Assembly (NCBI GenBank): GCA_017610005.1
Contig: JAFCCU010000012.1
Span: forward strand, 1-41,559
Reading direction: 5' to 3'
DNA from: Candidatus Woesearchaeota archaeon
GTDB lineage: Archaea > Nanobdellota > Nanobdellia > Woesearchaeales > B29-G15
Length of the DNA: 41,559 nucleotides
Numbering within the stretch: position 1 is the first letter of the stretch; each line of letters begins with the position of its first letter. Below, piece by piece: positions 26,107 through 41,559 of the stretch. The notes beneath the pieces were generated by a model. That model had not been told where the DNA came from and ran no database searches. It saw only the letters and a program-made list of their open reading frames with translations. A program made the translations under genes and the position numbers.

Positions 26107-26883
26107 ATGGGGCCCCCAAATAGAATTTATGAAGTTGAAATTGATTTAGTTAGAACTTGTAATCTACAATGCAAAATGTGTAACTTCTGGAAGAATAGTG
26201 TTAATCCAGAAAGAAGTTCAACTGAAGAACTTAAAAAAGCAATTTTAAATCTTCATAATTGGTTTCAAAGAGATTTTAAGATTGCATTTGCTGGAGGAGA
26301 ACCTTTTATGCGGAAGGATGCAGTTGAACTTATCGAGTATTCTTCTAACTTGGGAATAACCACCACTGTAATTACAAATGGGACTTTGATGACGGAAAAG
26401 ATGATTGATGAGATTGTGGAAAGTGGGCTTGTAGGATTAACAATTTCTATTGATAGTTTAGATCCAAAAAAGCATGATTATATCAGAGGGGTTAAAGGAA
26501 CTTTTGAAAAAGCATTTGGAACTTTTAATAAAATAATTGAAAAGAAAAAAGGGGAATTGCCTTACTTAAGTATTGCATCAATTGTGTCAAACTATAATCA
26601 TCTAGATGTAATAAAAATTTTAAAATGGTTGAAAGAAAATAAGGCAGGATTTCTAGTAATCCAATGTTTAAGCTATAATTTTTTCCCACATACTGAAGGA
26701 TGGTTTGACAAAAAACTTTGGCCAAGTTCTAAGGAGGAAGCATTAGAAATTTGTGATTCTCTTAGAACATTAATTAACATGAAAGAAGAAGGATATCCGT
26801 TAATAAATGATGCTGGGCAAATAAATGAAATGATTAACTATTTTAATGAACTTGATTGGAAGGGATTGATACAAAATGGATGA
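26107..26883 (+). CDS. Radical SAM core enzyme without its SPASM domain
   Basis: The protein has 258 residues from ATG 26107; the in-frame TTG at 26098 would add three. It has C18-x3-C22-x2-C25 (RTCNLQCKMC), GGEP at 63-66 and TISIDSLDPKKHD, all of a standard radical SAM barrel. It ends where related enzymes pass into a SPASM domain. A 71-residue SPASM-only frame starts inside its stop codon (ATGGATGA, 8-nt overlap). The two together would make one ordinary radical SAM/SPASM protein, so this is either a true split gene or a one-base frameshift. It carries GGEP, unlike the neighbouring WxGEP group. Confidence 0.85.
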   Translation: MGPPNRIYEVEIDLVRTCNLQCKMCNFWKNSVNPERSSTEELKKAILNLHNWFQRDFKIAFAGGEPFMRKDAVELIEYSSNLGITTTVITNGTLMTEKMIDEIVESGLVGLTISIDSLDPKKHDYIRGVKGTFEKAFGTFNKIIEKKKGELPYLSIASIVSNYNHLDVIKILKWLKENKAGFLVIQCLSYNFFPHTEGWFDKKLWPSSKEEALEICDSLRTLINMKEEGYPLINDAGQINEMINYFNELDWKGLIQNG

Positions 26884-27091
26884 ATCCTGTAAAGTTGCTT
26901 TTAGCTGCCTTGTTATAAATGAATCAGGGGATATGAGGATCTGTAGAGATATGGAACCAATTGGAAATATTAAGAACACAACTCCTGAAGAAGCATGGAA
27001 CTCCAAGGCCGCTACAGAAGTTAGAAAAAAGATTTTTGTATGTCAAAAGCCCTGCAAAATATTAAATTGCAATTATATAGACCATGAGTAA
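26876..27091 (+). CDS. Stand-alone SPASM domain (partner of the preceding radical SAM core)
   Basis: The protein has 71 residues. The segment VAFSCLVINESGDMRICRD, then GNIKNTTPEEAW and a final CQKPCKILNC form a complete SPASM auxiliary-cluster domain without a radical SAM barrel. The start ATG overlaps the upstream TGA and the end overlaps the next ATG by 8 nt, so translation is coupled on both sides. If expressed separately it would have to dock on the core in trans. A frameshift origin is equally possible. The coding frame is well supported by the motif. Confidence 0.8.
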   Translation: MDESCKVAFSCLVINESGDMRICRDMEPIGNIKNTTPEEAWNSKAATEVRKKIFVCQKPCKILNCNYIDHE

Positions 27092-27857
27092 AGATTCATT
27101 AGGTATCAGTTTTGAAATGTGTAATTTTTGTAATCTAAACTGCAAAATGTGTGGAATTCATCTCCAGAATAGAAAAGATTGTAAAAGTGGATTTCTTAGT
27201 TTTGAGAACTGGAAAAAAGGGGTATTGTCTCTTTCTAAAATAAAAGGTCGTTACATCGATTTAGTACCTCATTGGATAGGGGAACCCTTACTTAATCTAG
27301 ATTTTGGAAAAATGATGCTATTTGCATTTAACAATAATGAAAATAATAAACTTTTTCACCATTTTCAATTTAGCACAAACGGTCTTTTAATCAATAAACA
27401 TCTTGATGCTATAAAAGAATGCGTTTCAATGAAAAATCAAAGTGAAAATACTTTCTATTTCATTAATATATCTTTAGACGCATATTCAGATTTAACATTC
27501 TCCAAAATAAAAGGAAAAAATGGGCTTGAAGTTGTAAAAGAAAATATTAAATTATTACTTGACATTCAACAAAATTTTGGATATCCTAAGCTCCATCTCT
27601 CTTTCATCATTATGGAGGAGAATAAGCATGAGGCCGGATTATTCAAGGAATTTTGGGTTAATGAATTTACAAAAAGAAACCTCCCTCATGCCGTTAGCTG
27701 CAGATTTATATGTGAAGACTTAAATGTGATCTACTTTAGGCGGTTAAGCAATCCCTCCGACCAAATAAGTGCGAATAAGCTTCACCAAGAAATAGTGTCT
27801 TCTATAGGTGTTCAAGATAATTTGTATAACAAATACCCTGGCGGTGGTGAGTTCTAA
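27084..27857 (+). CDS. Radical SAM core of the WxGEP subfamily, SPASM split off
   Basis: The protein has 257 residues with C16-x3-C20-x2-C23 (FCNLNCKMC). In place of GGEP it has W-I-G-E-P at 64-68. Further marks of the subfamily are LHLSFIIMEENKHEA and FKEFWVNEF. It stops at GGGEF, at the linker before the SPASM domain, and the SPASM frame begins 11 nt later. Intact relatives are at 30431-31561, which carry core and SPASM in one chain. It is therefore a second split radical SAM/SPASM pair directly after the first. It may be a functional two-part enzyme or a decaying copy. Confidence 0.83.
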   Translation: MSKDSLGISFEMCNFCNLNCKMCGIHLQNRKDCKSGFLSFENWKKGVLSLSKIKGRYIDLVPHWIGEPLLNLDFGKMMLFAFNNNENNKLFHHFQFSTNGLLINKHLDAIKECVSMKNQSENTFYFINISLDAYSDLTFSKIKGKNGLEVVKENIKLLLDIQQNFGYPKLHLSFIIMEENKHEAGLFKEFWVNEFTKRNLPHAVSCRFICEDLNVIYFRRLSNPSDQISANKLHQEIVSSIGVQDNLYNKYPGGGEF

Positions 27858-27868
27858 TTTCAAAAAGA

Positions 27869-28144
27869 ATGCCTTGCAAGGGATTATGGAATTATTTGCT
27901 TGTTGACGTTGAAGGCAATATCACAACATGTTGCTTAGATTCTGATTTAAAGAACAAGATAGGGAATTTAAGTGAGATGGATTTGTTTGAGGCATTGAAT
28001 TCTGAAAAACTAAAAAGGTGGAGACAAGCACAATTAGAAGGGAGGTTTGAGGATAGCGGCCCACACTGCATGGAATGCAATTACCTTGCAGCCGAACAAA
28101 TGACTGAAGATGAGGTGTCTGAGATAACTAAAGATGATGAATAA
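27869..28144 (+). CDS. Stand-alone SPASM domain (partner of 27084-27857)
   Basis: The protein has 91 residues. MPCKGLWNYLLVDVEGNITTC, shown here only as its key marks C3, G18 and C23, is followed by KIGNLSEMDLFEAL and a CxxC near residue 72-75 (CMEC). This is the usual SPASM pattern of the subfamily. The open frame extends a few codons upstream of the ATG before hitting TGA, as expected if a frameshift separated it from the core. Its end overlaps the next gene by 11 nt. It probably carries an auxiliary iron-sulfur cluster. Confidence 0.78.
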   Translation: MPCKGLWNYLLVDVEGNITTCCLDSDLKNKIGNLSEMDLFEALNSEKLKRWRQAQLEGRFEDSGPHCMECNYLAAEQMTEDEVSEITKDDE

Positions 28145-29255
28145 AAAATTTATAGATTATTACCGGAACTTGGATAATAAAATGATTGGTTTTGATTTGT
28201 CCAATAAGTGCTGTTTCAAGTGCGTTTATTGCTCTTTTCAGAATAAACTCAACAAGGATAGAGAGAATGATTTTTTAAATCTAGATTTGTTTAAAAAAAT
28301 TATTAATGAACAGATAGAAAATAAAATTAAATATAGGGTCATTTTTTTAGCAGTGGGAGGGGAATCATTGATGCACCCATATTTCAACGAGATTATTAGC
28401 TTTCTTTTTAAGAATAATGAAGGTGAAAGATTATTTGATATAATAAGCTTGAATACAAATGTTGCTTTTTTAAGCCCCGAAAGTACAGATACCATTCATA
28501 ATTTAATATTAAATTATCCAGGTAAATTCATGATTACTTTATCTATTAATGCTTATTCTTCAAGGGCTTTTAAGTTAGTGAAGGGGCAAGATTTATTAAA
28601 AATAACTAATGAAAATACTAAATATTTATTGAGGGATAAGAAGAATAAAAATGTAACTGATGAGATTGTATTATTGCAATATCTTGTTCATGAACTTTCA
28701 AAGGAAGAATCTAAAAAGTTCTTAGATTTCTGGGAATCTTTTTTACAAGATGAAGGGATAAATTATATTGTTGAATACGAGCTCCCATTTAAGAAAGAGT
28801 CTGATGTTGCAATAATTTTTAAGAGAGTTTATTGGGATAATCAAGAAAAGTATGATAAAATGCATCAAGATGTAGTTAAAGAACTTGGCTTACTTCCTCT
28901 CGAAGAAAAAAAGAAAGACTTAGAAAAATTTTCTCCAAGATTTCATAGCGTTAAAAGAGAACCTTGCGCTTCTCTTTGGTTATCCCCCATTGTGAGGGTA
29001 GATGGAATACTTAGCCCTTGTTTGCAAGACGATCGCGATCTCCAGATGCTTGGAAATTTGAAAAATGATTCTTTCTTTGATCTTTGGTTCTCAGAAAGTG
29101 CACATAATTTGAGAAAGAAACACATTGCAGGGGATTTTGAGAATATATCCATTTGCAAGGATTGTGATTTCTTTATTGGACCAAAAATTTCAAAAGAGGA
29201 TATTTCTGGTTATTTAAGAATTTTTGATGAAATTAATGGAGAAGATGATGAATAG
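28134..29255 (+). CDS. Radical SAM/SPASM enzyme with variant GGES motif
   Basis: This 373-residue single-chain enzyme has C26-x3-C30-x2-C33 (KCCFKCVYC). The SAM-binding motif is G-G-E-S (75-78): Pro is replaced by Ser. The SPASM part starts near residue 275 with PCASLWLSPIVRVDGILSPC, GNLKNDSFFDLW and CKDCDFF. The middle region has LLQYLVHELSKEES, a diverged form of the LQFIxMEEN mark of the neighbouring subfamily. Two ATG codons (28134, 28137) overlap the upstream stop. It shows that the intact core-SPASM arrangement persists between split copies. Confidence 0.86.
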   Translation: MMNKKFIDYYRNLDNKMIGFDLSNKCCFKCVYCSFQNKLNKDRENDFLNLDLFKKIINEQIENKIKYRVIFLAVGGESLMHPYFNEIISFLFKNNEGERLFDIISLNTNVAFLSPESTDTIHNLILNYPGKFMITLSINAYSSRAFKLVKGQDLLKITNENTKYLLRDKKNKNVTDEIVLLQYLVHELSKEESKKFLDFWESFLQDEGINYIVEYELPFKKESDVAIIFKRVYWDNQEKYDKMHQDVVKELGLLPLEEKKKDLEKFSPRFHSVKREPCASLWLSPIVRVDGILSPCLQDDRDLQMLGNLKNDSFFDLWFSESAHNLRKKHIAGDFENISICKDCDFFIGPKISKEDISGYLRIFDEINGEDDE

Positions 29256-30330
29256 TTTAATTGACCAAAATGTTAGTTTGATAAGGGATTGGTTTAATGG
29301 GGTTAGGAGATACCCGAGATATTTGGAGATTTATCCCACAAATAAATGCAATCTTAAATGTATTTTTTGTGGGACTGTTGATTATACTAAGAGAAATGAA
29401 CTTTCGGATAATCAATGGTTTTCAATATTAAAAGAAGCTAATAAGGGGGGAGTTGAGGATATATATCTCTTAGGTGGTGGTGAGCCCTTGTTAAGGAAAA
29501 ATTTATTTGAGTTGATACTCAATAACTTTAAAAAAAAAGCTTTTTTTTCAATAACCACGAATGGTACATTGTTCACTCAAAATCTTATTGAGGGATTCAT
29601 AAAATTTCAATGGGATGAAATAGTAATTAGCATTGATGGATATAAGGATATTCATGATACTCACAGGGGTAAACAAGGGACCTTTGAAAAAGTAGAGAAA
29701 GCATTAGGCATCTTCAAAAAACTAAAGGTTAATAATAATTCTAAATTGCCTTTAATTAAAATTCATACCGTTCTTACAAATTTAAACTTTGATAAATTAC
29801 TACCTTTAATTGAGTTTGCAGAAAAATATGATATTTCTTATTTAGAGTTAGATTCACTAAGCACACTTTTCTGCGAAGATCCTTTATTTAAAAGTTTAGA
29901 AGTAAGTTCAGCGAGTTTTAATCTTTTTCAGGACTTACTTAATGATAAATATCTCCCTAAACTTAAATCTTGGGGGATAGAAAACAATTATTCTGATTTT
30001 GTTTCTCCGACTATTGTAAGGGGAGGATTTAGTGAAAATATTAATGTTGAGGATAACTTATCTGAGAAAGTTATTGGGCCACATTGTTACTTTCCTTGGT
30101 TGCGACTAGTTATAAATCCTTATGGAGAATTAAGGGTGTGTTGTGTGGGGACAGATGAAAAAAATCCAGGGACATTTTCTGAATCATTAAAACATACTTG
30201 GTTTAATTCTCATGAATTGGAAAAATTAAGAAAGACTATGAAGGAAGGTGTCATGCGAAGTTATTGTAAATACTGCCCCCCTGGATTAAAGGCAGAGAAT
30301 TTAAGAATCGCGAGTGTTCTAAATAAATGA
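29245..30330 (+). CDS. Radical SAM/SPASM enzyme
   Basis: Two adjacent ATG codons at 29245 and 29248 overlap the upstream stop; the in-frame TTG at 29224 is less likely. The protein has about 361 residues. Cys35-x3-Cys39-x2-Cys42 (NKCNLKCIFC) and GGGEP (near 77-81) mark the core. The SPASM part is HCYFPWLRLVINPYGELRVC, then a Cys-Cys pair and a closing CKYCPPG. It belongs with the GGEP type at 8456-9439 rather than with WxGEP. The layout WLRLVINPYGELRVCC is like SPASM enzymes that modify sugars or peptides. A 100-nt gap follows it. Confidence 0.87.
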   Translation: MMNSLIDQNVSLIRDWFNGVRRYPRYLEIYPTNKCNLKCIFCGTVDYTKRNELSDNQWFSILKEANKGGVEDIYLLGGGEPLLRKNLFELILNNFKKKAFFSITTNGTLFTQNLIEGFIKFQWDEIVISIDGYKDIHDTHRGKQGTFEKVEKALGIFKKLKVNNNSKLPLIKIHTVLTNLNFDKLLPLIEFAEKYDISYLELDSLSTLFCEDPLFKSLEVSSASFNLFQDLLNDKYLPKLKSWGIENNYSDFVSPTIVRGGFSENINVEDNLSEKVIGPHCYFPWLRLVINPYGELRVCCVGTDEKNPGTFSESLKHTWFNSHELEKLRKTMKEGVMRSYCKYCPPGLKAENLRIASVLNK

Positions 30331-30430
30331 TTTTGTTTTTATTAAAAATAAAAATTGCTATAGATATTATCTAAATATTTTGAGGAAACATTAATAAATA
30401 ATCCATGCTTGAATTATTTGAGGAGAGATA

Positions 30431-31561
30431 TTGGAACCGATAAATTTTCATGGTAATTATCTAGTTATGGAATTAACTAATAATTGTAACTGCAATTGCT
30501 CTCATTGTATTCGTGACAAGGGAATTAAATATCTCGAGAAAAAAGGAAATATTGAAAAACGAATTGTAATTAATCTAATAGATGATTTAGTTAATAACGC
30601 AATAAAATTTTATGATTTTAATATGTTCTGGTTAGGCGAACCATTAATGCATCCAGATTTCTTAGAAATTTACTCCTATGTATTAAATGCAAATAAAAAG
30701 AATAAACTTTTTGGAAGTGTTAATATACACACAAATGCCCACTTCCTCTCTCAAGAGATTATTAATCTTTTAAATGAGTTTCATGACGTTCCTCAAACTT
30801 GGCACTTAACAATTGATGCTACATCTCCAATTACCTACCAAAAGATCAGCGGAACTCACGGATTTGAGAAAGTAGTTGAAAATTGTAAACAATTGCTTTC
30901 GCAAAAGGAAGGTAAATTTCCAAGAATTGTTTTTCAATTCATAGTTGAAGAGGAAAATTACTATGAAGCTGAACCGTTCATTAATTTTTGGTCAAAAGAA
31001 TTTGAAAAATATAAATTGAGTTTTTCAAAGGTGGGATACTTTGTGCCAGGATATGTTGATAATTTTATATTTTTAAGACAATGTGATGCGGTAACTGGGG
31101 GGGAAGAAAGGCAAAAGAAACTTAATACCCTCTACAAAAATACATTATTAGAAAATGGAATTCAAGACCACAATTATGAAGGAAAAGAAGCTGTTTTTAT
31201 TCCAGAAGGATATGTCCACATTCCTTACAAAAAGAGAAAGAAATTGGGAGAAGTAGATTTTAGTAAAAATTCAATTTGCTCAGGTTTCTGGAAGACACCC
31301 ACCATCTCTTGGACTGGAGAAGTAACAGTTTGTCAACGAGATAGTGGGATGGAACTTAAGGCAGGTGATCTTAAGAAAGAGAAATTCTCAGAAATTTGGT
31401 GGGAATCTAAACAAATGAAGAAGAACAGAAATGCAATGATTGAACAAGATTTGGAGAAAATCCCAATATGTAATGGTTGTTTAATTCCAAAATCTTCGAA
31501 TTATAGTTCAATTTCAGAAAATGAACTTGAATATTATTTTTTAAAAAATGAAGAGCATTAA
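30431..31561 (+). CDS. Intact radical SAM/SPASM enzyme of the WxGEP subfamily
   Basis: The protein has 376 residues with a TTG start preceded by GAGGAG (30419-30424), one of the few Shine-Dalgarno-like sites in this window. Core: Cys19-x3-Cys23-x2-Cys26 and W-L-G-E-P at 67-71, with VFQFIVEEENYYEA and FINFWSKEF. A VPGYVDNF segment and an FIPEGY linker lead to the SPASM domain: SICSGFWKTPTISWTGEVTVC, of which the key marks are two Cys, W and G, then GDLKKEKFSEIWW and CNGC. It is the reference for where the split copies have been cut. Its end overlaps an SGNH gene by 14 nt. Confidence 0.87.
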   Translation: MEPINFHGNYLVMELTNNCNCNCSHCIRDKGIKYLEKKGNIEKRIVINLIDDLVNNAIKFYDFNMFWLGEPLMHPDFLEIYSYVLNANKKNKLFGSVNIHTNAHFLSQEIINLLNEFHDVPQTWHLTIDATSPITYQKISGTHGFEKVVENCKQLLSQKEGKFPRIVFQFIVEEENYYEAEPFINFWSKEFEKYKLSFSKVGYFVPGYVDNFIFLRQCDAVTGGEERQKKLNTLYKNTLLENGIQDHNYEGKEAVFIPEGYVHIPYKKRKKLGEVDFSKNSICSGFWKTPTISWTGEVTVCQRDSGMELKAGDLKKEKFSEIWWESKQMKKNRNAMIEQDLEKIPICNGCLIPKSSNYSSISENELEYYFLKNEEH

Positions 31562-32483
31562 TAATTTTAAAATGTTAGTTTTAGCTTTATTACTTTTTTT
31601 ATCTTTTGGTGCAGCAATCTTCTTCTCTTTTAACTTTGAAAATATTTTTGGAAAAACTTCTTTAGATTATAATATTTTCAATATCATTTTGGGAAGAAAC
31701 CTTAGTGGTCCTATTGTTGTAGATGGCTGCAATGTTTTTATTGATTATGATTTATTTCAAGAGATTGAAGTTTCAAATGGGGTAAGGAGATTTTTTAATA
31801 TTTCAAAACCTCCACTTATTTATAGGGAAAAAAGAGATAATCAGAATATTGTGGTTTTAGGAGATTCTTTTACATTTGCAGCAGGAGTTCTTGAAAATGC
31901 AAGTTGGCCTTTCTTTTTAAATGAAATTATAAATTCTAATGTTATAAATTTAGCTATACCTGGAATAAATACTAATATCTCTATAGAAAGATTTGCTAAA
32001 CTTGGAGTTGATTACCACCCCCAAATTGTTATTTACCAATATTCATTTAATGATTTTCAAGAGTCATATCTCCTTTTTTCAGCAATTGAGGCAGTGATTG
32101 ATAAGATTAACATTACACATGAGGATTCAGAATACCTTTTTAATTCTAAATTTCAAAACTTTTATGAAGATGAGATCTACCCATTAAATTGGAGGGGAAT
32201 CTTTAATAAATCCGTGTTGGCCCCCCTTATTAAATTGCATAATTTGAGCAAAAATCATAATTTCGAGGTTTTGATTCTTACTGTGCCAGGGAATGAAAGA
32301 GAATTAGATGAAGTTAAGAGATTATGTGATAATTTTAATTGGCCAATCATTGAGGTTGGGAAAGATATTGAATTTGAGTGGAAACCACCATTTACATTAG
32401 ATGATGGTCATTTTTCAGTGCAAACACATAAAAAAGTTGCAGAATTATTAAAATTAAAACTTGAAAATGCAAAACTATCTTAA
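31548..32483 (+). CDS. Membrane-anchored SGNH hydrolase, copy A
   Basis: The protein has 311 residues: one N-terminal membrane anchor (about 8-27), then VVLGDSFTF with nucleophile Ser107, block II NLAIPGINT, block III FNDF, and DDGHFS near the end with the catalytic Asp and His. The start overlaps the radical SAM gene upstream, so both are translated from one message. Its last 34 codons are nearly identical in DNA to those of the next SGNH gene, although the rest of the two proteins has diverged, which points to recent gene conversion or a template switch. Confidence 0.85.
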   Translation: MKSINNFKMLVLALLLFLSFGAAIFFSFNFENIFGKTSLDYNIFNIILGRNLSGPIVVDGCNVFIDYDLFQEIEVSNGVRRFFNISKPPLIYREKRDNQNIVVLGDSFTFAAGVLENASWPFFLNEIINSNVINLAIPGINTNISIERFAKLGVDYHPQIVIYQYSFNDFQESYLLFSAIEAVIDKINITHEDSEYLFNSKFQNFYEDEIYPLNWRGIFNKSVLAPLIKLHNLSKNHNFEVLILTVPGNERELDEVKRLCDNFNWPIIEVGKDIEFEWKPPFTLDDGHFSVQTHKKVAELLKLKLENAKLS

Positions 32484-32489
32484 TTATAG
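32388..32489 (+). repeat. 102-bp direct repeat, copy 1 (SGNH 3' end)
   Basis: It matches 33395-33496 with only two base differences (32403 and 32482), an offset of 1007 nt. It covers the last codons of the SGNH gene, the stop and the first codons of a radical SAM frame. Beyond 32489 the two copies drop to roughly 60% identity. Confidence 0.92.
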
Positions 32490-32551: not shown

Positions 32552-33490
32552 ATGAATAATATGAAAAAATATTTGGTTATCCTAATCTTCCTACTTTTTA
32601 TTCTTTTATTTGCTTTTTTTCAGACAAGTTATAATAGTTGGAAATTTGGAAGACAGATACCACCTTTAGAAAATTCAAAATTTTTAATCAAAGCAGTTTT
32701 TAATCAAAAAAATCCAATAACTTTTTATAATAATTTGATTGCAGTCAATCCTAATCTCCTTTATATGATCCCTACTTCAGAGTACCGGAAAGAACTTTAT
32801 GATTTTAAAAGGGATCCAATATCTTATCCCTTTAATGAGGGAAATATGTCTTTGTTAATACTAGGGGATTCATATAGCTGGGGTTTAGGTGTAAAACAAA
32901 ATGAAACATGGCCCTCTATATTATCAAAGACAGTGTCATACAAGGTTTTCAATTTTGCAATTAGTGGGATTAACACAAAAATTGAAGTTGGTAAATTAGA
33001 AAAAAGAGGAATTGAGTATAACCCCAATTTGGTTATTCTTCAATATTGTTTCAATGATTTTGAGGATACTTATGAACAATATAATTTAGCAGATAATATT
33101 AGTTTTGAATTTGAAAAAAGGGGACTAGACTATTCTTTATCAAGTATACATAAGGCTGCATCCAGTTTCTATGAAAAGTTTGTATTCAAAAAAAACCCGG
33201 AAAAAGAATTTGAAGAAGAAGTACTAACTCCCTTAGAGAAGTTATATAATCTAAGTCAAACGAATAATTTTACTGTTTGGGTTCTTATGCTACCCTCTCC
33301 TCCGTTTCAAACACATTTGTTAAATGAAAGGTTTAATAAATATGGGTGGAGAATATTTGATATACATGAATTGTTAGATTTTGAATATGATCCGCCATTT
33401 ACATTAGATAATGGTCATTTTTCAGTGCAAACACATAAAAAAGTTGCAGAATTATTAAAATTAAAACTTGAAAATGCAAAACTATCTTGA
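32552..33490 (+). CDS. Membrane-anchored SGNH hydrolase, copy B
   Basis: The protein has 312 residues. The N-terminal anchor covers about residues 6-25; ATG 32561 is an alternative start. The catalytic marks are LILGDSYSWG (Ser107), NFAISGINT, FNDF and DNGHFS. The C-terminal 34 residues are identical to copy A except for one Asp/Asn change, and the matching DNA is almost unchanged, while the rest shares only family-level resemblance. Its last codons overlap the start of the next radical SAM gene by 17 nt, and the same overlap is fossilised after copy A. Confidence 0.85.
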   Translation: MNNMKKYLVILIFLLFILLFAFFQTSYNSWKFGRQIPPLENSKFLIKAVFNQKNPITFYNNLIAVNPNLLYMIPTSEYRKELYDFKRDPISYPFNEGNMSLLILGDSYSWGLGVKQNETWPSILSKTVSYKVFNFAISGINTKIEVGKLEKRGIEYNPNLVILQYCFNDFEDTYEQYNLADNISFEFEKRGLDYSLSSIHKAASSFYEKFVFKKNPEKEFEEEVLTPLEKLYNLSQTNNFTVWVLMLPSPPFQTHLLNERFNKYGWRIFDIHELLDFEYDPPFTLDNGHFSVQTHKKVAELLKLKLENAKLS

Positions 33491-33496
33491 TTATAG
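33395..33496 (+). repeat. 102-bp direct repeat, copy 2 (SGNH 3' end)
   Basis: This is the partner of 32388-32489. It ends a few codons into the intact radical SAM gene that starts at 33474. Confidence 0.92.
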
Positions 33497-34256
33497 GTTA
33501 CAGTACACATTAGTGGAGATTACAAATTATTGTAATCTTAAGTGCCCCATGTGCCCCCAAGCATTTGATGGTGGGATGTGTGAAAAGGGATTTATGGACT
33601 TTAAAACTTTTAAAAATATCGTAGATAATTTTCCGAGAAAACAAAAACCAAATGCCTTAAAACTCTTCTGGCTAGGAGAACCTATGCTGCATCCAGATTT
33701 CAATAAATTCTTAAAATATGCATCTGAAAAACTTAATAATCCAAGAGGGTATGAGTACATCACTTTTGACAGCAATGCAACACTTTTAACTAAAGAGATT
33801 ACAGATACAATCTTAGATGCTGGTGACTTAATTCCTTTATTCACATTATCTTTGGATGCAATCAAAGAAGAAACTTATAAGAAGATTAGAATTGGAGGAA
33901 ATTTTAATAAAACTATGGAGAATGTAAAATACTTCTTCAAACGAAGACATGAGCGGGGCTTATTGTATCCAGCAGTAATGCTTCAATTCATTGTAATGGA
34001 TAAAAACCATACTGAAATTTTAGAATTTATTGAATTTTGGAAAGATTTTCTTAAAAAACATTTTGTGCCAGGATTGAGGCACCATAAAGATATCATTTGG
34101 ATAAAAAGAATGGACACTCCTGACCCAAAAGAACAACAGAATTTAAACGAGTTTTATGCTACAAAATTAAAAGAGTACAATATAAAAAGTCAAGACCTTG
34201 GTTGGTGCAGAATTGGGGCAGAGATAAGCAATGATTTGAGGGATATGGATGGTTGA
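33474..34256 (+). CDS. Radical SAM core of the WxGEP subfamily lacking SPASM
   Basis: The start is ATG 33474 (TTG 33468 is possible), within the SGNH 3' end. The protein has 260 residues. Cys20-x3-Cys24-x2-Cys27 (YCNLKCPMC), W-L-G-E-P at 66-70, VMLQFIVMDKNHTE and FIEFWKDF place it in the subfamily. It ends with LRDMDG at the usual core-SPASM linker. The next frame is not SPASM but a B12-type radical SAM gene that overlaps by 8 nt. The first SPASM domain downstream is the N-terminus of the composite gene at 35687, which is the likely missing half. Confidence 0.84.
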   Translation: MQNYLDYRLQYTLVEITNYCNLKCPMCPQAFDGGMCEKGFMDFKTFKNIVDNFPRKQKPNALKLFWLGEPMLHPDFNKFLKYASEKLNNPRGYEYITFDSNATLLTKEITDTILDAGDLIPLFTLSLDAIKEETYKKIRIGGNFNKTMENVKYFFKRRHERGLLYPAVMLQFIVMDKNHTEILEFIEFWKDFLKKHFVPGLRHHKDIIWIKRMDTPDPKEQQNLNEFYATKLKEYNIKSQDLGWCRIGAEISNDLRDMDG

Positions 34257-35697
34257 TTATAAAAAAGTTGTATTGGTGAATCCTCCGGTTTGGAATGCAA
34301 GATCTCCTCCCTTGAATATTGCTTACCTCTCTGCATATGCCAAACTTCATGGATATAATGTTAAGTGTTTTGATTTTAATATCGAATTCCTTAATAAAGT
34401 TCCAAGTGAGTACAAGAAATTTTGGAAGGGAGAATTTATGGAGTTCTGGAATGACGATTTGCTTTGGAAAACCCAATTAAAACCTAAAATTGGCAAATAC
34501 CTCATTAAACAAATGGTATCGAAGATAATTGGGCAAAAACCCGGAGTGGTTGGTTTTTCGATAAACTATTCTTCGCCATTATTGATAGAAGTATCCGAAT
34601 TGATCAAAAAAGAAGATCCAAATATTATCATTGTGGTGGGCGGAAATTTAAGTGAAATATTCCTCTCAGGGGAACAGCTATTAAAATCAGGTAATATTGA
34701 TTTTTCAGTAATGGGAGAAGGGGAGTTGACTTTTATTGAAATTCTTAAACGGTTAGATAACGGTAAAATATTAGATGACATTGAAGGGACCTCAGTTTTT
34801 AGAGAAGGGAAGATCTTAGAAAATAAAAGAAGGCCTAGATTCTCTCAAATTGATAATATTCCCTTTCCAGACTTTTCAGATTTTGATCTGGGGTTATATC
34901 TTGAAAGAGATTTATTAACTAGTGCCGTTTGGCTTCCAATTCTTTTTAGCAGGGGATGCATATATGAATGTGACTTCTGTTTACAAAAATGGATTTGGGG
35001 GAAGTCATTTACTACAAGATCTGCTGAAAATGTGGTTGAGGAAATTGAACTTTTTATCCAAGAGTATGGAATAAACAAATTTCAATTTTCAGACTTGGAA
35101 ATAAATGGAAATTTAAGGATTCTCGAATCCTTTTGTGATTTGATAATTGAAAAGAAAATTGATATAAGTTGGGGTGGAACTGCGATCATAAGGAAGGATA
35201 TGGAGTTAAGATTATTAAAGAAAATGAGGCAAGCAGGATGCGATTGGTTAGATTTTGGATTAGAATCTGGTTCAAAAAGTGTGATCCTTTCTATGGGAAA
35301 GAATTTTTCTCCAGGAGAGGCAGTTGAACAGTTTAGGGAGGTACATGAAGCGAATATTGTAGTAACCCTATCTTTAATAGTAGGATATCCCTGGGAATCT
35401 GAGATTGACTTTAATGAAACAATAAGTTTACTTAAAAGGTCATTTAAATATATGAGTATCCCTCCTTCAGTTTCTTCATGTACAGTTTTCCCAAGAACCC
35501 CCCTTCATAAAAAACTTATTCAATCAGGGGTCCCCGAGGAAGATGCTCTTTGGGTAAAATGGAAAAATGGAAATAATGATTTTAATGAAAGAAAAAGGAG
35601 AATTAAATTACTAGACCAATTTGTAAAAGAAAATTTTGATAAAAAAGGGATATCAATTCCAGATGATGAAATCTACCACTTTAAAAATGCAAAATAG
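34249..35697 (+). CDS. B12-binding-domain radical SAM enzyme
   Basis: The protein has 482 residues. The N-terminal cobalamin-type Rossmann domain shows VVLVNPPVW, VVGFSINYSSP, VVGGNLSEIF and SVMGEGELTF. The core has Cys237-x3-Cys241-x2-Cys244 (SRGCIYECDFC) and DFGLESGSKSVI. The class performs radical methylation or rearrangements. It is the second such enzyme in the window, only distantly similar to 10892-12280. It sits between a SPASM-less radical SAM core and a gene that begins with a SPASM domain, overlapping both (8 and 11 nt). This suggests an insertion at the core-SPASM junction or a deliberately interleaved operon. Confidence 0.85.
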   Translation: MVDYKKVVLVNPPVWNARSPPLNIAYLSAYAKLHGYNVKCFDFNIEFLNKVPSEYKKFWKGEFMEFWNDDLLWKTQLKPKIGKYLIKQMVSKIIGQKPGVVGFSINYSSPLLIEVSELIKKEDPNIIIVVGGNLSEIFLSGEQLLKSGNIDFSVMGEGELTFIEILKRLDNGKILDDIEGTSVFREGKILENKRRPRFSQIDNIPFPDFSDFDLGLYLERDLLTSAVWLPILFSRGCIYECDFCLQKWIWGKSFTTRSAENVVEEIELFIQEYGINKFQFSDLEINGNLRILESFCDLIIEKKIDISWGGTAIIRKDMELRLLKKMRQAGCDWLDFGLESGSKSVILSMGKNFSPGEAVEQFREVHEANIVVTLSLIVGYPWESEIDFNETISLLKRSFKYMSIPPSVSSCTVFPRTPLHKKLIQSGVPEEDALWVKWKNGNNDFNERKRRIKLLDQFVKENFDKKGISIPDDEIYHFKNAK

Positions 35698-38041
35698 AAA
35701 CCCTTGTCCTGCACTCTTCATGACTCCAGTTATCCAATGGAATGGAGATGTTACTGTGTGTTGCTATGATCCCATGATGGAATTAAGGGTAGGCAATATC
35801 AATGAAAAACCACTAGAGGATATTTGGTATTCGGAGGAGATGCATAAGCGAAGGATTATGCAGATAATGGGGGACTTTTCTTACCCTTCAAAGTGTTTAG
35901 CTTGTAAAAATGTTGACGGGATTCAAATTACTGATAAAGAAATTGTAGAGTATCTAAAAAATGTTGGGAGAGAAGACTTGATTTCATTGTACATGTTTAA
36001 ACAAGGAAAAAATCACTCAACTAAAGATACCATTTATGTAAACCCAGAAAAATTTTCTAAGCAGAGTTGGGAGAAGAATTTCTATTATTACCTAGGTAAA
36101 GATGGATTTGAAAAAGGATATCACTTTTTAGAAGGGAAAGGCAAAGGCTTTTTTTCATTTGATATAAATTCTAACTTTGCTCTTGAAAAAGTTAAATCAA
36201 TTAAAGTGAGCGCTAATCTAGCAACTTTAAATAATCTCCCAAATGCTAACAGTAACATCTCTCTTATAATAAATGGATCAGAGATTGGCAAGAATAATAT
36301 CTCTCCCTTGATGGGGGGAAAAGGATCAGTCTATACTTGGGTAATAACCAATAAAAAATTAATTGACTCATTAAAAGAAGATTTTACAATCACATTCTCT
36401 TCAGAAGATATTGGACTTTGCATTTTAACTCGTCCGAGTAATTCGTTAAACAGGTATTATCCAATCAAACTAGAATTTTCAAAAAAAAGAATGGAAGTTA
36501 AATTTGATGCAGGGGCTAATTTAACAAATAATGAATGGGACAAAGAGTTTAGCAAATACTCTGGGAAAGATGGAAGTTCATTTATTTATGGATATGATTC
36601 AGGTTTTTTTGAATATTCTTTTCACTCTAAATTACCTAAAAAATCTAAAATTATCATATCTGCAAATCTAGCAACATTTGGCTGGCAAGATAATAAGATG
36701 GTTAGAAGAAAGGGGAAGGTTGCTGTTAAATTTGATGGGATTAACTTAGGAGAAAGAATGGTTTATCCTTTAGAAGAAGGAGTTGGAAGAACTTACTCCT
36801 GGGTTTTAGAAGACACCAAAGGCATTAACTGTGAGGGGGATCACACAATAAGGTTTGAACCAATTGCATCAACCGGTTTAGCAATTTTGGAAAAACAGAG
36901 TGAAAAAAAACATCTTCCAATAACTATCAGATTAGTTAATGATTGTGAATTAAATGGAGATATTAAACAAATTGCTAAAAGCTTAATTAACCAACCACTA
37001 GAAAAACCAATCTGCAACGGATTTTGGAAGACGCCAACTGTTAATTGGAATGGAGATGTTACTGTCTGCTGTAAGGACTCTGATATGCAATTAAAATTAG
37101 GAAATTTACTTGAAAAAGGATTTAACGAACTTTGGTGGGACAATATTTATGCTAACGTAACTAGGTTAAATCACATCAAAGGCGATTTATCAACAATCCC
37201 CCTTTGCAGCACATGTAAATTTAAAGAGGATATGGAGCAAATGCCTTCTACAGATATCGAAGAATACCTTCGATATATCTTAGGGGGAGGTAATCTCCCC
37301 AAGTACCAAGATTCTTTTCTTACAATCGAACTTACAAATAAGTGCAATATGAAATGTATTATGTGCCCCCAAGCAGAAGGAAACTTATGGAGATCAAGCA
37401 GGGGAGAAGATGAGTTTGGATTTATGAAACTTAAAGATTTTAAAATAATTATTGACAAGTTGCTTGCAGAAAAGCAATCATTTAGAGATATTGTATTATT
37501 CTGGTTTGGAGAACCTCTTTTAAACCCAGATTTTAAAGAGATGGTAACTTACTTAGAATCTAAGAGGGATAAAAAATTATTTGATCGCATATTAATTCAT
37601 ACAAATGGATCATTGCTTACTAAAGAGCTTAGTGATTTCTTAATTAAGTTAAAAGGAGATTTTTTCTTTCACTTCTCAATTGATGCAGCCACAAAAGAAA
37701 CATATGAAAAAATAAGGGTTGGTGGAGACTGGAACGAAGTCCTGGCAAATATCCAATATTTCCTTCAAAAAAAGAAGGGTAAAAAGAATATTTCTGCAGT
37801 GCTCCAATTTATTGTTATGGAAGAGAATAAAAATGAACTTGGGAAGTTTAAAGAAGATTGGTCAAATTTTTTTAGGGAGAATAATATGAAATTTTCTGTT
37901 GCAACAATGGGTAATTTTGATCCTAAATACTATAATTTTATATTTTTTAGAAAGCTAGCTAACCAAAGTTTTGTATCTGGAAAAGGTTTTTTAAAAGTTC
38001 CAGAAGGGTTTTATCAAGAGCAGTTAGATAAGATTAATTGA
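35687..38041 (+). CDS. Composite protein: SPASM, two beta-sandwich repeats, SPASM, radical SAM core
   Basis: ATG 35687 is chosen because it overlaps the upstream TAG; earlier in-frame starts lie inside the previous gene. The protein has 784 residues. Residues 1-100: SPASM (PCPALFMTPV, GDVTVCC, CLAC). About 116-275 and 276-415: two related beta-sandwich units sharing SANLAT, GKDG, a G-x-G-x-x-Y-x-W strand and a final IxxEF-type strand; they look like galactose-binding or CBM-like jelly rolls. About 430-525: second SPASM (ICNGFWKTPTVNWNGDVTVC). About 540-784: radical SAM core with Cys553-x3-Cys557-x2-Cys560 and W-F-G-E-P (606-610). SPASM before the core is the reverse of the usual order. The core ends at VPEGFYQEQL, where its own SPASM would begin. 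Confidence 0.8.
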   Translation: MQNRNPCPALFMTPVIQWNGDVTVCCYDPMMELRVGNINEKPLEDIWYSEEMHKRRIMQIMGDFSYPSKCLACKNVDGIQITDKEIVEYLKNVGREDLISLYMFKQGKNHSTKDTIYVNPEKFSKQSWEKNFYYYLGKDGFEKGYHFLEGKGKGFFSFDINSNFALEKVKSIKVSANLATLNNLPNANSNISLIINGSEIGKNNISPLMGGKGSVYTWVITNKKLIDSLKEDFTITFSSEDIGLCILTRPSNSLNRYYPIKLEFSKKRMEVKFDAGANLTNNEWDKEFSKYSGKDGSSFIYGYDSGFFEYSFHSKLPKKSKIIISANLATFGWQDNKMVRRKGKVAVKFDGINLGERMVYPLEEGVGRTYSWVLEDTKGINCEGDHTIRFEPIASTGLAILEKQSEKKHLPITIRLVNDCELNGDIKQIAKSLINQPLEKPICNGFWKTPTVNWNGDVTVCCKDSDMQLKLGNLLEKGFNELWWDNIYANVTRLNHIKGDLSTIPLCSTCKFKEDMEQMPSTDIEEYLRYILGGGNLPKYQDSFLTIELTNKCNMKCIMCPQAEGNLWRSSRGEDEFGFMKLKDFKIIIDKLLAEKQSFRDIVLFWFGEPLLNPDFKEMVTYLESKRDKKLFDRILIHTNGSLLTKELSDFLIKLKGDFFFHFSIDAATKETYEKIRVGGDWNEVLANIQYFLQKKKGKKNISAVLQFIVMEENKNELGKFKEDWSNFFRENNMKFSVATMGNFDPKYYNFIFFRKLANQSFVSGKGFLKVPEGFYQEQLDKIN

Positions 38042-38414
38042 CTTGCACACATATTCTTTGAACTATCTTTTTATCAGTTGAAAAAATATCAAACATTTCT
38101 ATGGCAGATGATGAAACTTCAATTTCTCCGTTTATAAATAGGTTAGTGCAGTCAGTCGAGTTAATTGTAAAGACTTTTCCATTAACCGTTACTGAATAAT
38201 TGAAGTTACTCCAGTCAAAGATTTTTTTAATAGGGTTTATTACAATTGGTAAATTGTTTGATCCACTAATCTTAAACTTTTTTTCTTTTGTGACAAATGG
38301 AAGTTGTTTTGATTGATTTTGAAATTTAATAATCTCGCGAGAGGTATTTAATTGAATTATTCGTGTTGAATTTATTCTTTCTGGGGAGAATCCATAAAGG
38401 ACGAAACTAATGTT
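38034..38414 (-). pseudogene. In-frame continuation of the GT-C gene beyond a TAG
   Basis: After the TAG at 38417-38415 the same frame stays open for 126 codons to a TAA at 38036-38034. It reads like an exported domain (NISFVLYGFSPERINSTR at the start, VTVNGKVFTINSTDCTN in the middle), with several Asn-X-Ser/Thr sequons and no early start codon of its own. With it the protein would have 565 residues plus the TAG position, close to its GT-C relatives. It is probably the former C-terminus, cut by a nonsense mutation. Confidence 0.72.
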
Positions 38415-39734
38415 CTATCTGGGAAATGAGTTATTGTTCTCTTTAAGCCAGAGCATTTGTACATATTTATCTCCAGTGAGCTCATGAATTTGGGAATTTT
38501 TAAGATCATTTAAAAATGAATAAGTTGGTTTGTATAATATGCTGTTATCATCTGAGTGGTAATAAGAGGTGTTAGTGGCATTAGAAAATACAAATACAGA
38601 TATACTTGTAATAAGATTAATAACTATAAATAGCAAAAGCATTATTTTTACCCACTTCTTAATTGCAGGGAATTTAATTTCTTGAAGGCCTTTTACTAGG
38701 ATAAAGAAATACACTGGAAGAGCGACAGCATAATACCTGGAGGGTGCAGCGCCAATAATTAAGAAAAATATCAAGGGTAACAAGTACCACAAGAGTATAT
38801 AACGATACTTTTTGGGCAATAGAAAAGCACCCAGTATAAATAAGGATGATTGAATTGTTGCTACCCCTGAAATAATCAAGAGGAGAATTCTAGCTCCCGA
38901 CTTATAAATAAATGAGGATATTCCATAGGCCATGGGCGTGAATGCATTAAGATACATATGGATTATTTTAAATGAGGAAATATTGTTGCTGACATGGTCC
39001 CCCAGGAATCTTATCTCATTTAACCAATTATGGGGATTAAAAAGGCCCATGAAATTAGCTTCAATCCCTAGTAAGGCAATCATGGCTAGCAAAATCGCTA
39101 TTGCCTCAGGTTTTAATTGCTTTAATTTTAAGACTGTTTGTAAGAAATATATTGGGAGTAATAACACTGAGATGGGATAAATATTCATCATCATAAATAT
39201 GCTAATTGAATAAATAAAGAAATCCTTTGTGCTAGGATTTATCTTATTCATTTTCAAAGAATAAAAAAAGAAGAGGGCAAGGAAAGGTAGTATTGAAAAT
39301 GGTCTGTGGGCCTGTTTTGTTGTAATCAGTAGAAAAGGAGAGCTAGCAAGTAAAAAGAAAAAGATTTGCGCATTTTTATTAGAAAATTCTTTTATTGTGG
39401 AAAGTCCAAAAATAAATATTGCAGTAGAAATTAAAATTATAGTTATAATTTGGATACCTTGAAATTCAATTTTCTCCTTCCCAAAAATGTAAATGTAATT
39501 TTGAAAAGATGGAAACTTAACAAAACAATCTGAAGATTTTTTCACACAAGAAAAGGAATTTAGTGAAATTGAGTTTAGTGGATCTTTAAATTGAAACTGA
39601 AGTGTGGCAGTGGTAATCGGGGCAAACTCAGAAGAAGCAAGCATTACTATGAAAAAGAGAAATGAAATAATTATTATTGATTTATTTTTCCCAAAACCAT
39701 TTAGTTTGTTCCGATGGAAAGTTTCTTTTTTCAT
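38415..39734 (-). CDS. GT-C/GT39-like membrane protein, probably truncated by TAG
   Basis: The protein has 439 residues and about ten membrane helices after a basic N-terminus. A 60-residue outside loop after helix 1 (SSEFAPITT, CVKKSSDCF) holds a possible disulfide, and QAHRPFSILP lies between helices, a place where GT39-like proteins keep a substrate-binding motif. It ends in NNNSFPR-TAG, shortly after the last helix, while the other GT-C proteins here continue with a soluble domain. The frame continues for 126 codons after the TAG. The start overlaps the SGNH gene stop (ATGA). Truncation may abolish or merely shorten the function. Confidence 0.62.
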   Translation of the reverse strand: MKKETFHRNKLNGFGKNKSIIIISFLFFIVMLASSEFAPITTATLQFQFKDPLNSISLNSFSCVKKSSDCFVKFPSFQNYIYIFGKEKIEFQGIQIITIILISTAIFIFGLSTIKEFSNKNAQIFFFLLASSPFLLITTKQAHRPFSILPFLALFFFYSLKMNKINPSTKDFFIYSISIFMMMNIYPISVLLLPIYFLQTVLKLKQLKPEAIAILLAMIALLGIEANFMGLFNPHNWLNEIRFLGDHVSNNISSFKIIHMYLNAFTPMAYGISSFIYKSGARILLLIISGVATIQSSLFILGAFLLPKKYRYILLWYLLPLIFFLIIGAAPSRYYAVALPVYFFILVKGLQEIKFPAIKKWVKIMLLLFIVINLITSISVFVFSNATNTSYYHSDDNSILYKPTYSFLNDLKNSQIHELTGDKYVQMLWLKENNNSFPR

Positions 39735-40837
39735 ATTATAAGATCACTAACCAAATAATCAACAAGCTCTTTTGCGTACCATTCATACACATAAGAAGGG
39801 GGGTGGATATCAGAATATTCTTCAGAAAGATTTAATTTATATGTGCACAGCGAGAAGCATTGGGCACCCCAATAAGTGTTATTTCCACTACAACATTCTT
39901 TCCAATGCCCCATTGAATCAAATATTAATATTGGAATCTTTTTATATTCTTTTACAAAGTTAGTAAAGTCTCTATAATTGATGTACTGCCCGTAATCTTG
40001 ACTTTTTTCATGAATTGAAGAACCAAACACATTTGTTGGTGAATCACCCACTGAACCATAATGGGGTTCTCCTTTTTCAAGCGCCCCCACATATTCTCTT
40101 CTAAAAAAAACTATTACCATAAACCCATAGACTCTTGATTTGCCAATTAGAAGATTATGTGCCTTGGATAAAGAACTTTTTTCAAAAGGAGATGGAACGT
40201 TTTCTTTAAATAGTTCTTTGTTTTTATTGAACAGTTGGATTAAACCTTTGACATTTCCTTCTTCTTGCAAGGAAAAAGCTCGTTTCCCTTCATTTCTGTG
40301 CTGAATTATTAAAAGATCTGGATTATAAGCTTCAATAATTTCTTTTGCATAGGCTACTTTTTGAGAGAGTACATACCCGCAAAGTCCGGCATTCCAAACT
40401 TCAAATTTCCCTGGATATTTTTCATCAAGCATTCGTTGCATAATCGCAGGATATGTATCATTATCACTGACTGCTGCCCCATATGTATTAGATCCACCTA
40501 ATACAACTATTCTATAGATGCCTTCAGACTTTTTTTGATTTCTCTCTTGACTCCTAAATCCCATACTATTAATTGTGACTTTTCTTTCTTGATATTTGGT
40601 TTCAGAAGGGTGGACGTAACCTATTGTTTCAAAGAAATTAGGTCTAAGTGAATAGAGCCGGTTGGCATTTTCTGATGTAACATAAGCATTAGTATCAAAA
40701 ACCTGGTAATAAAGCATTGGTTCTAATAATCTAATATCAATAGACGTGATTCTAACAAACACTTCAAATAAAAAAATAAAAAGAATAATTCCTAGCAAGA
40801 TTAAACTTAATTTTGCAATAAGTGAAATCTTAGGCAT
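39731..40837 (-). CDS. Membrane-anchored SGNH hydrolase (GGS variant)
   Basis: The protein has 368 residues with one N-terminal anchor (about 9-30). Block I reads VLGGSNTYGA, so Gly replaces the usual Asp of GDS; nucleophile Ser116 is kept. NSMGFRS precedes it, as in AlgX/SGNH proteins of glycan clusters, and SDIHPPS near the C-terminus supplies Asp and His. Block III is unusual (QHRNEGKR). A Cys-rich insertion (CCSGNN, CFSLC) is unique to this copy. It is first in a two-gene unit with the GT-C gene and is divergent from the last radical SAM gene. Confidence 0.8.
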   Translation of the reverse strand: MPKISLIAKLSLILLGIILFIFLFEVFVRITSIDIRLLEPMLYYQVFDTNAYVTSENANRLYSLRPNFFETIGYVHPSETKYQERKVTINSMGFRSQERNQKKSEGIYRIVVLGGSNTYGAAVSDNDTYPAIMQRMLDEKYPGKFEVWNAGLCGYVLSQKVAYAKEIIEAYNPDLLIIQHRNEGKRAFSLQEEGNVKGLIQLFNKNKELFKENVPSPFEKSSLSKAHNLLIGKSRVYGFMVIVFFRREYVGALEKGEPHYGSVGDSPTNVFGSSIHEKSQDYGQYINYRDFTNFVKEYKKIPILIFDSMGHWKECCSGNNTYWGAQCFSLCTYKLNLSEEYSDIHPPSYVYEWYAKELVDYLVSDLII

Positions 40838-40860
40838 TGTAGGAATAGAGAGTGAATATT

Positions 40861-40868
40861 ATTTAAAC
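40861..40868 (-). promoter_or_regulatory. TATA box of the SGNH/GT-C unit
   Basis: The minus strand reads GTTTAAAT, centred about 27 nt before the ATG at 40837. It lies in a 73-nt divergent gap. Confidence 0.45.
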
Positions 40869-40880
40869 CTTACCCAAACT

Positions 40881-40889
40881 TTTTTATTG
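40881..40889 (+). promoter_or_regulatory. TATA-like element of the last radical SAM gene
   Basis: TTTTTATTG is centred about 27 nt before the ATG at 40911. It is a weak match, supported mainly by spacing. Confidence 0.3.
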
Positions 40890-40910
40890 TAATTTAGTTT
40901 TTCTATCATA

Positions 40911-41559
40911 ATGGTTTATCCAATTAAGATGGACACTATGCTAATTGAACTCGCTGACTTTTGTAATCTTCAGTGTATCATGTGTGATATGAGTGAGGCA
41001 GGAAGAATAAGACATGGTCATCAAAATCCAGAAGAAAGCGTTCACAAAACCAATCACCTCACCCTCCCCTTCTCCTCTTTCAAGAAAATAATCGACAGTG
41101 TCAACAATTCTGGTATGAAGATGGGCATATTATCCTTATTTTGGCTTGGAGAACCAATGCTAAATCCAGAGATTGATTTAATGATTGATTATTTAAATAA
41201 AAATAAGAAAAATATTGATGGATGGCTTTTACATACAAATGCAAATATTCTAAGAGAAAACACTTTAAAAGTATTGTTTGAATCAAAAGGAGACAACATC
41301 CTCCACTTTTCAATTGATGCAGCAAGTAAAGAAGTGTATGATACGGTAAGACCAGGAGGGGATTATAACAAAGTTGTTTCAAATATTCAAAAAGCCTTAG
41401 ATTTAATCTCTAAAGGCTCCCCAAGAATTATCCTCCAATTCATTCTTATGGAAGAAAATAAACAAGACGCAATGTTATTTGCAGATTTTTGGAGCCAAGA
41501 ATTTAAAAAACGAAATTTAGATTTTGCTATTGCAAGAAATTACACGCAACACAAAAATA
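40911..41559 (+). CDS. Radical SAM enzyme of the WxGEP subfamily, 3' end beyond window
   Basis: The frame is open from ATG 40911 to the right edge, 216 codons. It has Cys18-x3-Cys22-x2-Cys25 (FCNLQCIMC), W-L-G-E-P from residue 78, HFSIDAASKEVYD, and IILQFILMEENKQDA with FADFWSQEF, all marks of the subfamily. Compared with the full member at 30431-31561 it lacks roughly the last third, so a SPASM domain may lie outside the window. It is the fifth member of this subfamily and is separated from the others by a minus-strand SGNH/GT-C pair. An insertion of about ten residues rich in His follows the Cys motif. Confidence 0.85.
   Translation, partial: MVYPIKMDTMLIELADFCNLQCIMCDMSEAGRIRHGHQNPEESVHKTNHLTLPFSSFKKIIDSVNNSGMKMGILSLFWLGEPMLNPEIDLMIDYLNKNKKNIDGWLLHTNANILRENTLKVLFESKGDNILHFSIDAASKEVYDTVRPGGDYNKVVSNIQKALDLISKGSPRIILQFILMEENKQDAMLFADFWSQEFKKRNLDFAIARNYTQHKN

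Follow-up and report, generated by a model that had tools for sequence, protein, structure and literature searches.

Split radical SAM/SPASM enzymes in a probable hypervariable surface-glycan locus of a Woesearchaeota archaeon

Introduction

Radical S-adenosylmethionine (rSAM) enzymes with a SPASM domain usually act on peptides, and BtrN and BlsE act on sugar-like substrates. What the auxiliary clusters of SPASM domains do has been called enigmatic for the most part (PMC10470005). In SkfB most of the linker that joins the rSAM core to the twitch domain is disordered, and the twitch lies against the start of the core (PMC6231123). Cassettes of rSAM genes have also been reported from the glycosyltransferase-rich hypervariable host-recognition region of pelagimyophages (PMC7029224), which hints, by analogy, that rSAM genes may travel with surface-glycan islands. 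Here we describe a 41,559-nucleotide contig of a Woesearchaeota archaeon (JAFCCU010000012.1, the whole of which we call the window) that we consider fairly likely to hold a hypervariable surface-glycan locus with an rSAM battery, in which fission has left the core and the SPASM domain of several enzymes encoded by separate genes. The literature searched, which covered subscription journals little, held neither a paper linking Woesearchaeota with rSAM glycan chemistry nor a description of a SPASM domain encoded as its own gene, and no paper giving radical SAM a role in archaeal N-glycosylation turned up in it.

The window is contig C50 of a metagenome-assembled genome (MAG) of 1,575,208 bases in 62 contigs (91.9% complete, 4.2% contamination); C4, C5, C10, C24, C30 and C49 likewise label contigs. 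We compared two Candidatus Woesearchaeota genomes of the same genus, namely B29_G15 (G001), whose scaffold name B29_Guay15 suggests an origin in the Guaymas Basin, and AlinenSediments bin-3794, for which we use the name lake species because of that label. Genes of the window are named by the coordinate of their first base.

Results

A preliminary description made from the letters of the window had counted eleven rSAM cores, two of them B12-type. All eleven (8456, 10892, 26098, 27084, 28134, 29224, 30431, 33468, 34249, 35636 and 40911) score above the PF04055 cut-off and keep the CxxxCxxC motif, and 10892 and 34249 do carry B12-binding domains. That description had also noted three separately placed SPASM units. 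The three places stand, but the units number four, namely 26876, 27869 and two that lie N-terminal to the core in 35636, and they are halves of split enzymes. All four score above the PF13186 cut-off and keep a CX9-15GX4C pattern; a CX2C motif is kept in 27869 and 35636, and the cysteine spacing is different in 26876.

Split enzyme 1 consists of a catalytic core without a SPASM domain (26098..26883, + strand; PF04055 E 3.6e-25) and a SPASM-only gene (26876..27091, +; PF13186 E 4e-8). Split enzyme 2 pairs a core of the WxGEP type (27084..27857, +; PF04055) with the SPASM-only gene 27869..28144 (+; PF13186 E 4.9e-11). In the third case the WxGEP core 33468..34256 (+; PF04055), which is 61% identical to its C10 counterpart, has as its presumed SPASM half the start of 35636, a protein with the order SPASM1, two beta domains resembling carbohydrate-binding modules (CBMs), SPASM2 and a WxGEP core (PF13186 twice, PF04055). 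For 35636 we prefer the ATG at 35687 to the TTG at 35636 that gave the gene its name, so that it spans 35687..38041 (+) and overlaps the preceding gene by 11 nt. That gene, the B12-binding rSAM 34249..35697 (+; PF02310, PF04055), lies between the two halves in the window; in C10 the halves are adjacent and the 34249 homologue is located elsewhere.

Further pairs of core-only and SPASM-only genes occur on C4 (L004:3496/3224), on C10 (L001:4789/4520 and 19121/19908) and in the lake species (L027:7999/7718 and L028:4825/5580), and a pair orthologous to 27084/27869 is found on contig C48 of G217, a member of another family. On C24 the enzyme is spread over three genes, a core (L003:6983), a linker-only gene (9389) and a SPASM gene (10655), with other rSAM genes interspersed; the lake species has the same block minus one inserted gene. 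The genes 26098 and 26876 overlap by 8 nt (ATGGATGA), as does the C10 pair (ATGGGTGA). Core/SPASM junctions read ATGA in C4, C104 and C5 and ATGGRTGA in C50 and C10, and the two genes are probably translationally coupled through overlaps of this kind in most cases. Compared with C10, the core 26098 is 56% identical in amino acids to C10:19121 (pN 0.275, pS 0.70) and 26876 is 63% identical to the C10 SPASM-only gene (pN 0.246, pS 0.81). Unusually, several rSAM/SPASM enzymes are inherited as two genes, of which one encodes the catalytic half and the other the half with the iron-sulfur (SPASM) domain.

We built trees of the cores (33) and of the SPASM units (50), and they are congruent. Some 3 kb separates the core L003:6983 from the SPASM gene L003:10655, and each groups as sister to its counterpart region in one and the same intact enzyme (L004:3-1019, L027:906); both 27084 and 27869 are sister to the intact L004:9570. 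SPASM1 of 35636 falls close to SPASMs whose cores are related to 33468, and apart from the relatives of its own core. The distances of the paired cores and SPASMs correlate (Mantel r 0.83, 0 of 5000 permutations), and the correlation holds when each orthologue group contributes a single pair (r 0.73, 19 of 5040 permutations). Core and SPASM halves would most likely re-associate in trans.

A possible but clearly less likely alternative is that SPASM-first proteins such as 35636 are N-terminal-twitch rSAM enzymes of the NF033640 kind, in which SPASM and core act in cis in permuted order. Residues 458-768 of 35636 match positions 3-318 of that model at 119.5 bits, the best score obtained; the other SPASM-first proteins reach 46-113 bits, and none attains the cut-off of 170. 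A SPASM-core tandem array at L030 agrees with such a layout, and general trans pairing is unsupported there. The position of the twitch in SkfB makes a permutation sterically plausible, and together with the disordered linker it implies that a cut or a permutation at this place would be structurally mild (PMC6231123). However, a cis arrangement leaves unexplained the SPASM-only genes, the SPASM-core-SPASM proteins and the grouping of SPASM1 of 35636 near the SPASMs of 33468 relatives.

SPASM1 and SPASM2 of 35636 enclose the two beta domains. When beta2, the second of them, was modelled (pLDDT 68.9), the model retrieved CBM6, CBM35 and CBM36 structures in Foldseek (best E 8.5e-5, probability 1.00), and the same region of a whole-protein model matches CBM structures more weakly. 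A first AlphaFold model of 801 residues was poor (mean pLDDT 59.5) and was not used for SPASM docking, and PDB sequence searches with the beta domain of 35636 and with the N-terminal domain of L005:2668 gave no matches. A CBM-like beta domain also stands at the C-terminus of a protein of 1548 residues on contig C89 of G002 (L042 327-4973), which has a WxGEP core, internal repeats and a middle part with no Pfam match, and which precedes a SPASM-core-SPASM protein.

The rSAM enzymes keep company with glycan genes. In the window a GT2 glycosyltransferase (GT), four PMT_2-type GT-C proteins and esterase-like genes are clustered, and in unrelated genomes the rSAM family adjoins glycan genes as well. 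We examined 20 genomes that do not belong to the genus; there, the 117 genes next to WxGEP-type enzymes include members of the GT1 (8), GT2 (8), NAD epimerase (8), GDP-mannose dehydratase-like (7), Polysacc_synt_2 (5), CTP_transf_3 cytidylyltransferase (5), UDP-GlcNAc 2-epimerase (4) and DegT (3) families, which overlap; each of them occurs at most once among 124 control proteins from 20 regions, some of them short, on arbitrary contigs of the same genomes. In G217 a Wzm/Wzt-type exporter lies near a WxGEP-type gene and a carbamoyltransferase and a GT4 enzyme lie beside the split pair, and on C24 a single protein has the order rSAM-GT2-rSAM. The earlier proposal that the rSAM enzymes modify an exported glycan gains from these neighbourhoods, the fusion, the exporter and the CBM-like domain as far as the link to glycans is concerned, but radical modification and export themselves are inferred. 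A gene for AglB, outside the window on C49, would offer one route for the finished glycan onto proteins.

Several further loci touch on this context. The conserved rSAM/GT block of C24 (L003 16775-20000, G000:C24) ends in the rSAM-GT2-rSAM protein and GT28-like proteins and adjoins genes resembling those for type IV pilus/archaellum ATPase and membrane subunits; the neighbourhood is the same on G002:C89, and a pilin may be the glycan acceptor. In B29_G15, sulfatases (PF00884) lie beside WxGEP or SPASM-only genes (L033 1540-3084, L046 1571-3118), and in another family (L039, G051:C51) rSAM/SPASM genes lie inside an apparent pseudaminic/legionaminic-acid type cluster.

We think it unlikely that the rSAM/SPASM enzymes modify peptides or proteins, either as maturases of ribosomally synthesized and post-translationally modified peptides (RiPPs) or on a surface protein such as a pilin, with the sugar genes as bystanders. 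Such a role would match the general habit of SPASM enzymes; peptide maturases are among the nearest NCBIfam models (34249 resembles the RiPP C-methyltransferase TIGR03975 at 133 bits, cut-off 282), and the related block on C24 lies beside type IV pilus assembly-like genes. Yet no curated maturase cut-off is reached among the NCBIfam models listed, and the rSAM block has gaps of 11-100 nt, besides one of 373 nt between convergent genes, with no evident precursor in it. The window proteins scanned showed no RiPP recognition element (RRE) and neither a peptidase nor an ABC exporter domain. The preliminary description had named homologues with peptide precursors and no glycan genes as the finding that would speak against a glycan role, and that pattern was not found; in 20 other genomes the relatives are surrounded by glycan genes. 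The rSAM-GT2-rSAM fusion counts against a peptide substrate too. The maturase scores, the neighbourhoods and the gaps of the block do not support the RiPP version, though an unknown short precursor may lie elsewhere.

Still less probable is a pathway to an unusual lipid or small metabolite, made by the battery through B12-rSAM chemistry of the hopanoid or ladderane kind and then decorated by the glycan genes. The nearest models to 10892 are HpnJ, BchE and the ladderane B12-rSAM model, all below their cut-offs (208, 200 and 144 bits), but B12-rSAM families with very different substrates score similarly for this protein, no lipid-synthesis genes were recognised in the window, and the neighbourhood signal of the WxGEP relatives consists of sugar-nucleotide enzymes.

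We likewise find it hard to credit that the SPASM-only genes are debris, whether frameshift errors or pseudogenes in decay. In favour of this, the genome is a MAG, one GT-C gene of the window has an in-frame stop, and the 27084/27869 junction is off frame by one, such that a single indel could restore it. However, the core/SPASM split recurs in independent genomes, the overlapping junctions are conserved, and the cluster cysteines are kept in cores and SPASM units. The SPASM-only genes of C4 and C104, the best-conserved pair of this kind, are 80% identical with pN 0.125 against pS of about 1, where synonymous sites are saturated. In other families, intact core-SPASM frames are the rule. Using a profile built from SPASM-only genes, and hence biased toward them, we found related SPASMs outside the genus and G217 almost all in frames of 280-400 residues (288 genomes of the order and 279 of the phylum), and the few short frames lay mostly near contig ends. 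The suspected one-base error in 27084/27869 is answered by the orthologous split pair in G217, and we reject a frameshift artefact since the split is conserved in other species and families. A viperin (pVip) defence role for 26098 can be dismissed, its scores (80 bits in NCBIfam, where the NF038283 cut-off is 180, and 92 bits for PADLOC pVip) reflecting generic rSAM resemblance.

A second version of the island is present on C10 (26.7 kb). It matches the window at 93% nucleotide identity over 9072-9435 (C10:1-364), within the intact rSAM-SPASM gene 8456..9439 (+; PF04055, PF13186), and at 94% over 40932-41559, within the WxGEP core 40911..41558 (+; PF04055), which is cut by the contig end; these two genes form the shared left and right flanks. 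Between them, the homologous genes compared share 37-64% protein identity and gene content differs; C10 holds the same island in a divergent form, with its flanks conserved. C50 and C10 end in the same 114 bases, an overlap as long as that between C4 and C30, so both probably run into a single assembly-graph node. Two strains with replaced islands would account for this; alternatively, one cell may carry two copies. Repeats of about 100 bp from gene 3' ends flank inserted genes, at 32385-32489 and 33392-33496 around the second SGNH gene and at C10 269-364 and 1952-2043 around two GT-C-like frames, which looks like cassette insertion at gene ends. A short repeat with a 7-bp register also occurs on several contigs (L003 10984-11119 and 14039-14235 on C24, encoding a QKSEVGS-like sequence; L006; L009). 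We looked for a viral origin and for phage relatives and found none.

Across the 1.58-Mb MAG there are 60 PF04055 and 37 SPASM matches. In an even sample of 288 Woesearchaeales genomes, first-look counts of PF04055 candidates place the MAG joint top with 66 (median 13). The preliminary description knew of no described archaeal system as dense, but first-look counts of at least 45 occur in 14 of the 288; the expansion is extreme, yet recurrent within the order.

The remaining genes largely bear out the first gene list, which placed the system in about 37 kb; the listed genes do span about 4617-41558, but the interval 26107-41559 given with it holds only nine of the eleven cores (those inside 26098-41558). 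Three intact rSAM-SPASM enzymes follow split enzyme 2, namely 28134..29255 (+) and 30431..31561 (+), both WxGEP-type, and 29224..30330 (+), all recognised by Pfam; 30431 has a homologue 41% identical in G217. The other B12-binding rSAM, 10892..12280 (+), has PF02310 and PF04055. The DPM1-like enzyme is confirmed as a GT2 polyprenyl-phosphate-sugar synthase resembling DPM1 and GtrB (7300..8223, +; PF00535 E 1.1e-34; two C-terminal transmembrane (TM) segments), as is the AsnB-like glutamine amidotransferase (5531..7303, +; PF00733 E 2.9e-67, PF13537).

All six SGNH enzymes match Pfam GDSL families, three above the cut-off (16167..17225, -; 19018..20058, +; 32552..33490, +) and three slightly below it: 4617..5501 (+; PF13472 E 2.3e-6, with GDSF and DGHP motifs), 31548..32483 (+), whose 3' 105 bp are common with 32552, and 39731..40837 (-; PF13472 E 6.8e-5). 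Each has one N-terminal hydrophobic segment, predicted to span the membrane, and all except 39731 have a GDS[FYC] motif. Of seven proposed GT-C proteins, four have PMT_2 above the cut-off: 12246..14657 (-), a fusion with an AXE1-like alpha/beta-hydrolase at its C-terminal end (PF05448 E 2.1e-4, slightly under the cut-off), 14654..16102 (-), 17307..19031 (+; PMT_2/PMT) and 23842..25341 (-). The other three are weakly based, assigned by hydropathy with no Pfam match: 9424..10854 (+) and its homologue 20209..21852 (+; phmmer E 1.5e-64), with nine predicted TM segments each, and 38415..39734 (-), with seven. In the frame of 38415 a TAG codon is followed by an extension of at least 123 residues (38042-38414), and the TAG may be a nonsense mutation, an error or a site of readthrough. 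The name glycosidase is not confirmed for the soluble protein 21906..23849 (+), which has no significant Pfam match. A small lipoprotein-like gene (25396..26046, +) has a homologue in C10 (tblastx to 18714-19064). Outside the island, a tRNA of 103 nt found only by Rfam (3262-3364, -) probably contains an intron and adjoins a 76-bp perfect tandem repeat (3114-3265), and a Fic-domain-like protein (1717-2898, -) resembles the SoFic/PDC-S04 defence candidates.

Discussion

Several points weigh against the picture of a surface-glycan locus with split enzymes. The two-halves Mantel test rests on about seven independent pairs picked by position, the L030 array fits an N-terminal SPASM in cis better than trans pairing, and the window's own split pairs are near synonymous saturation, such that selection on them is shown only roughly. 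The beta2 model is modest at pLDDT 68.9, Foldseek also returns Cry-toxin and phage-fibre domains for it, and jelly-roll folds such as this one are found beyond sugar-binding domains. In addition, no classic Wzx/Wzy-type polymerase or flippase was found in the window. We nevertheless favour a hypervariable surface-glycan locus, in which the parts could work as follows.

In the cytoplasm, the GT2 enzyme would make lipid-phosphate sugars, and the rSAM battery would edit nucleotide- or lipid-linked sugars; 29224 and 35636, the two rSAM proteins checked, have no predicted TM segment. The battery would comprise SPASM/twitch oxidoreductases, deoxygenases or epimerases and B12-dependent C-methylases. 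Outside the cell, GT-C enzymes would assemble the glycan from lipid-phosphate sugars, and membrane-anchored SGNH and AXE1-like esterases would trim or add acyl groups. Fission at the linker between core and SPASM has left several of the enzymes as two genes, one for each part, and the SPASM half would probably dock on the core in trans. In the case of 33468 and 35636, the presumed SPASM half forms the front of another rSAM protein, which carries two carbohydrate-binding-like domains, and a B12-rSAM gene lies between the halves.

A more speculative and rather improbable extension is a daisy chain in which each enzyme's SPASM half is joined to the core of the next, such that successive enzymes, tethered through auxiliary-cluster domains that they share, act in order on one lipid-linked glycan held by CBM-like modules. 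The candidate cases would be 33468 followed by 35636, and the 1548-residue core protein followed by the SPASM-core-SPASM protein in the conserved C24/C89 block. The logic would resemble the docking domains of modular synthases, as a radical assembly line.

With naturally split enzymes, cores and SPASM halves could be produced apart, reconstituted and mixed, which would provide a direct test of whether the SPASM domain sets the choice of substrate, redox or partner and would offer a way to learn what sugar-modifying radical enzymes of this kind do. The locus also suggests that DPANN archaea may diversify radically modified surface sugars as bacteria do their O-antigens, with implications for host contact and virus escape.

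The enzyme class and the kind of locus are already known, and what is new is a variant of the rSAM/SPASM class. NF033640 (N_Twi_rSAM), the best NCBIfam match of several SPASM-core proteins here, likewise has SPASM/twitch ahead of the rSAM core in one chain, but here SPASM units also stand alone or are assigned by trees and position to an upstream core. The SPASM peptide maturases CteB, SkfB, PqqE and PapB share the combination of an rSAM core and an auxiliary-cluster domain, and CteB (5wgg) is the top PDB match to the WxGEP profile; theirs are intact with a C-terminal SPASM/twitch, and SkfB and CteB have an RRE, whereas neither RRE nor precursor was found here. BtrN (an aminocyclitol dehydrogenase) and BlsE/cytosylglucuronate decarboxylase are among the solved structures closest to the same profile, but they are distant (E 1e-17 and 1e-6) and are single-chain enzymes of antibiotic pathways, outside surface-glycan loci. 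Archaeal N-glycosylation (Agl) clusters also use lipid-phosphate sugars and the genome has an AglB/STT3 gene, although it lies outside the window. As a locus, the closest likeness is with O-antigen and capsule loci and replacement flexible genomic islands, which share conserved flanks, a divergent interior, GTs and sugar- and acyl-modifying enzymes; unlike these, the locus described here is archaeal, based on GT-C enzymes and lipid-phosphate sugars with no Wzx/Wzy recognised in the window, and dominated by rSAM enzymes.

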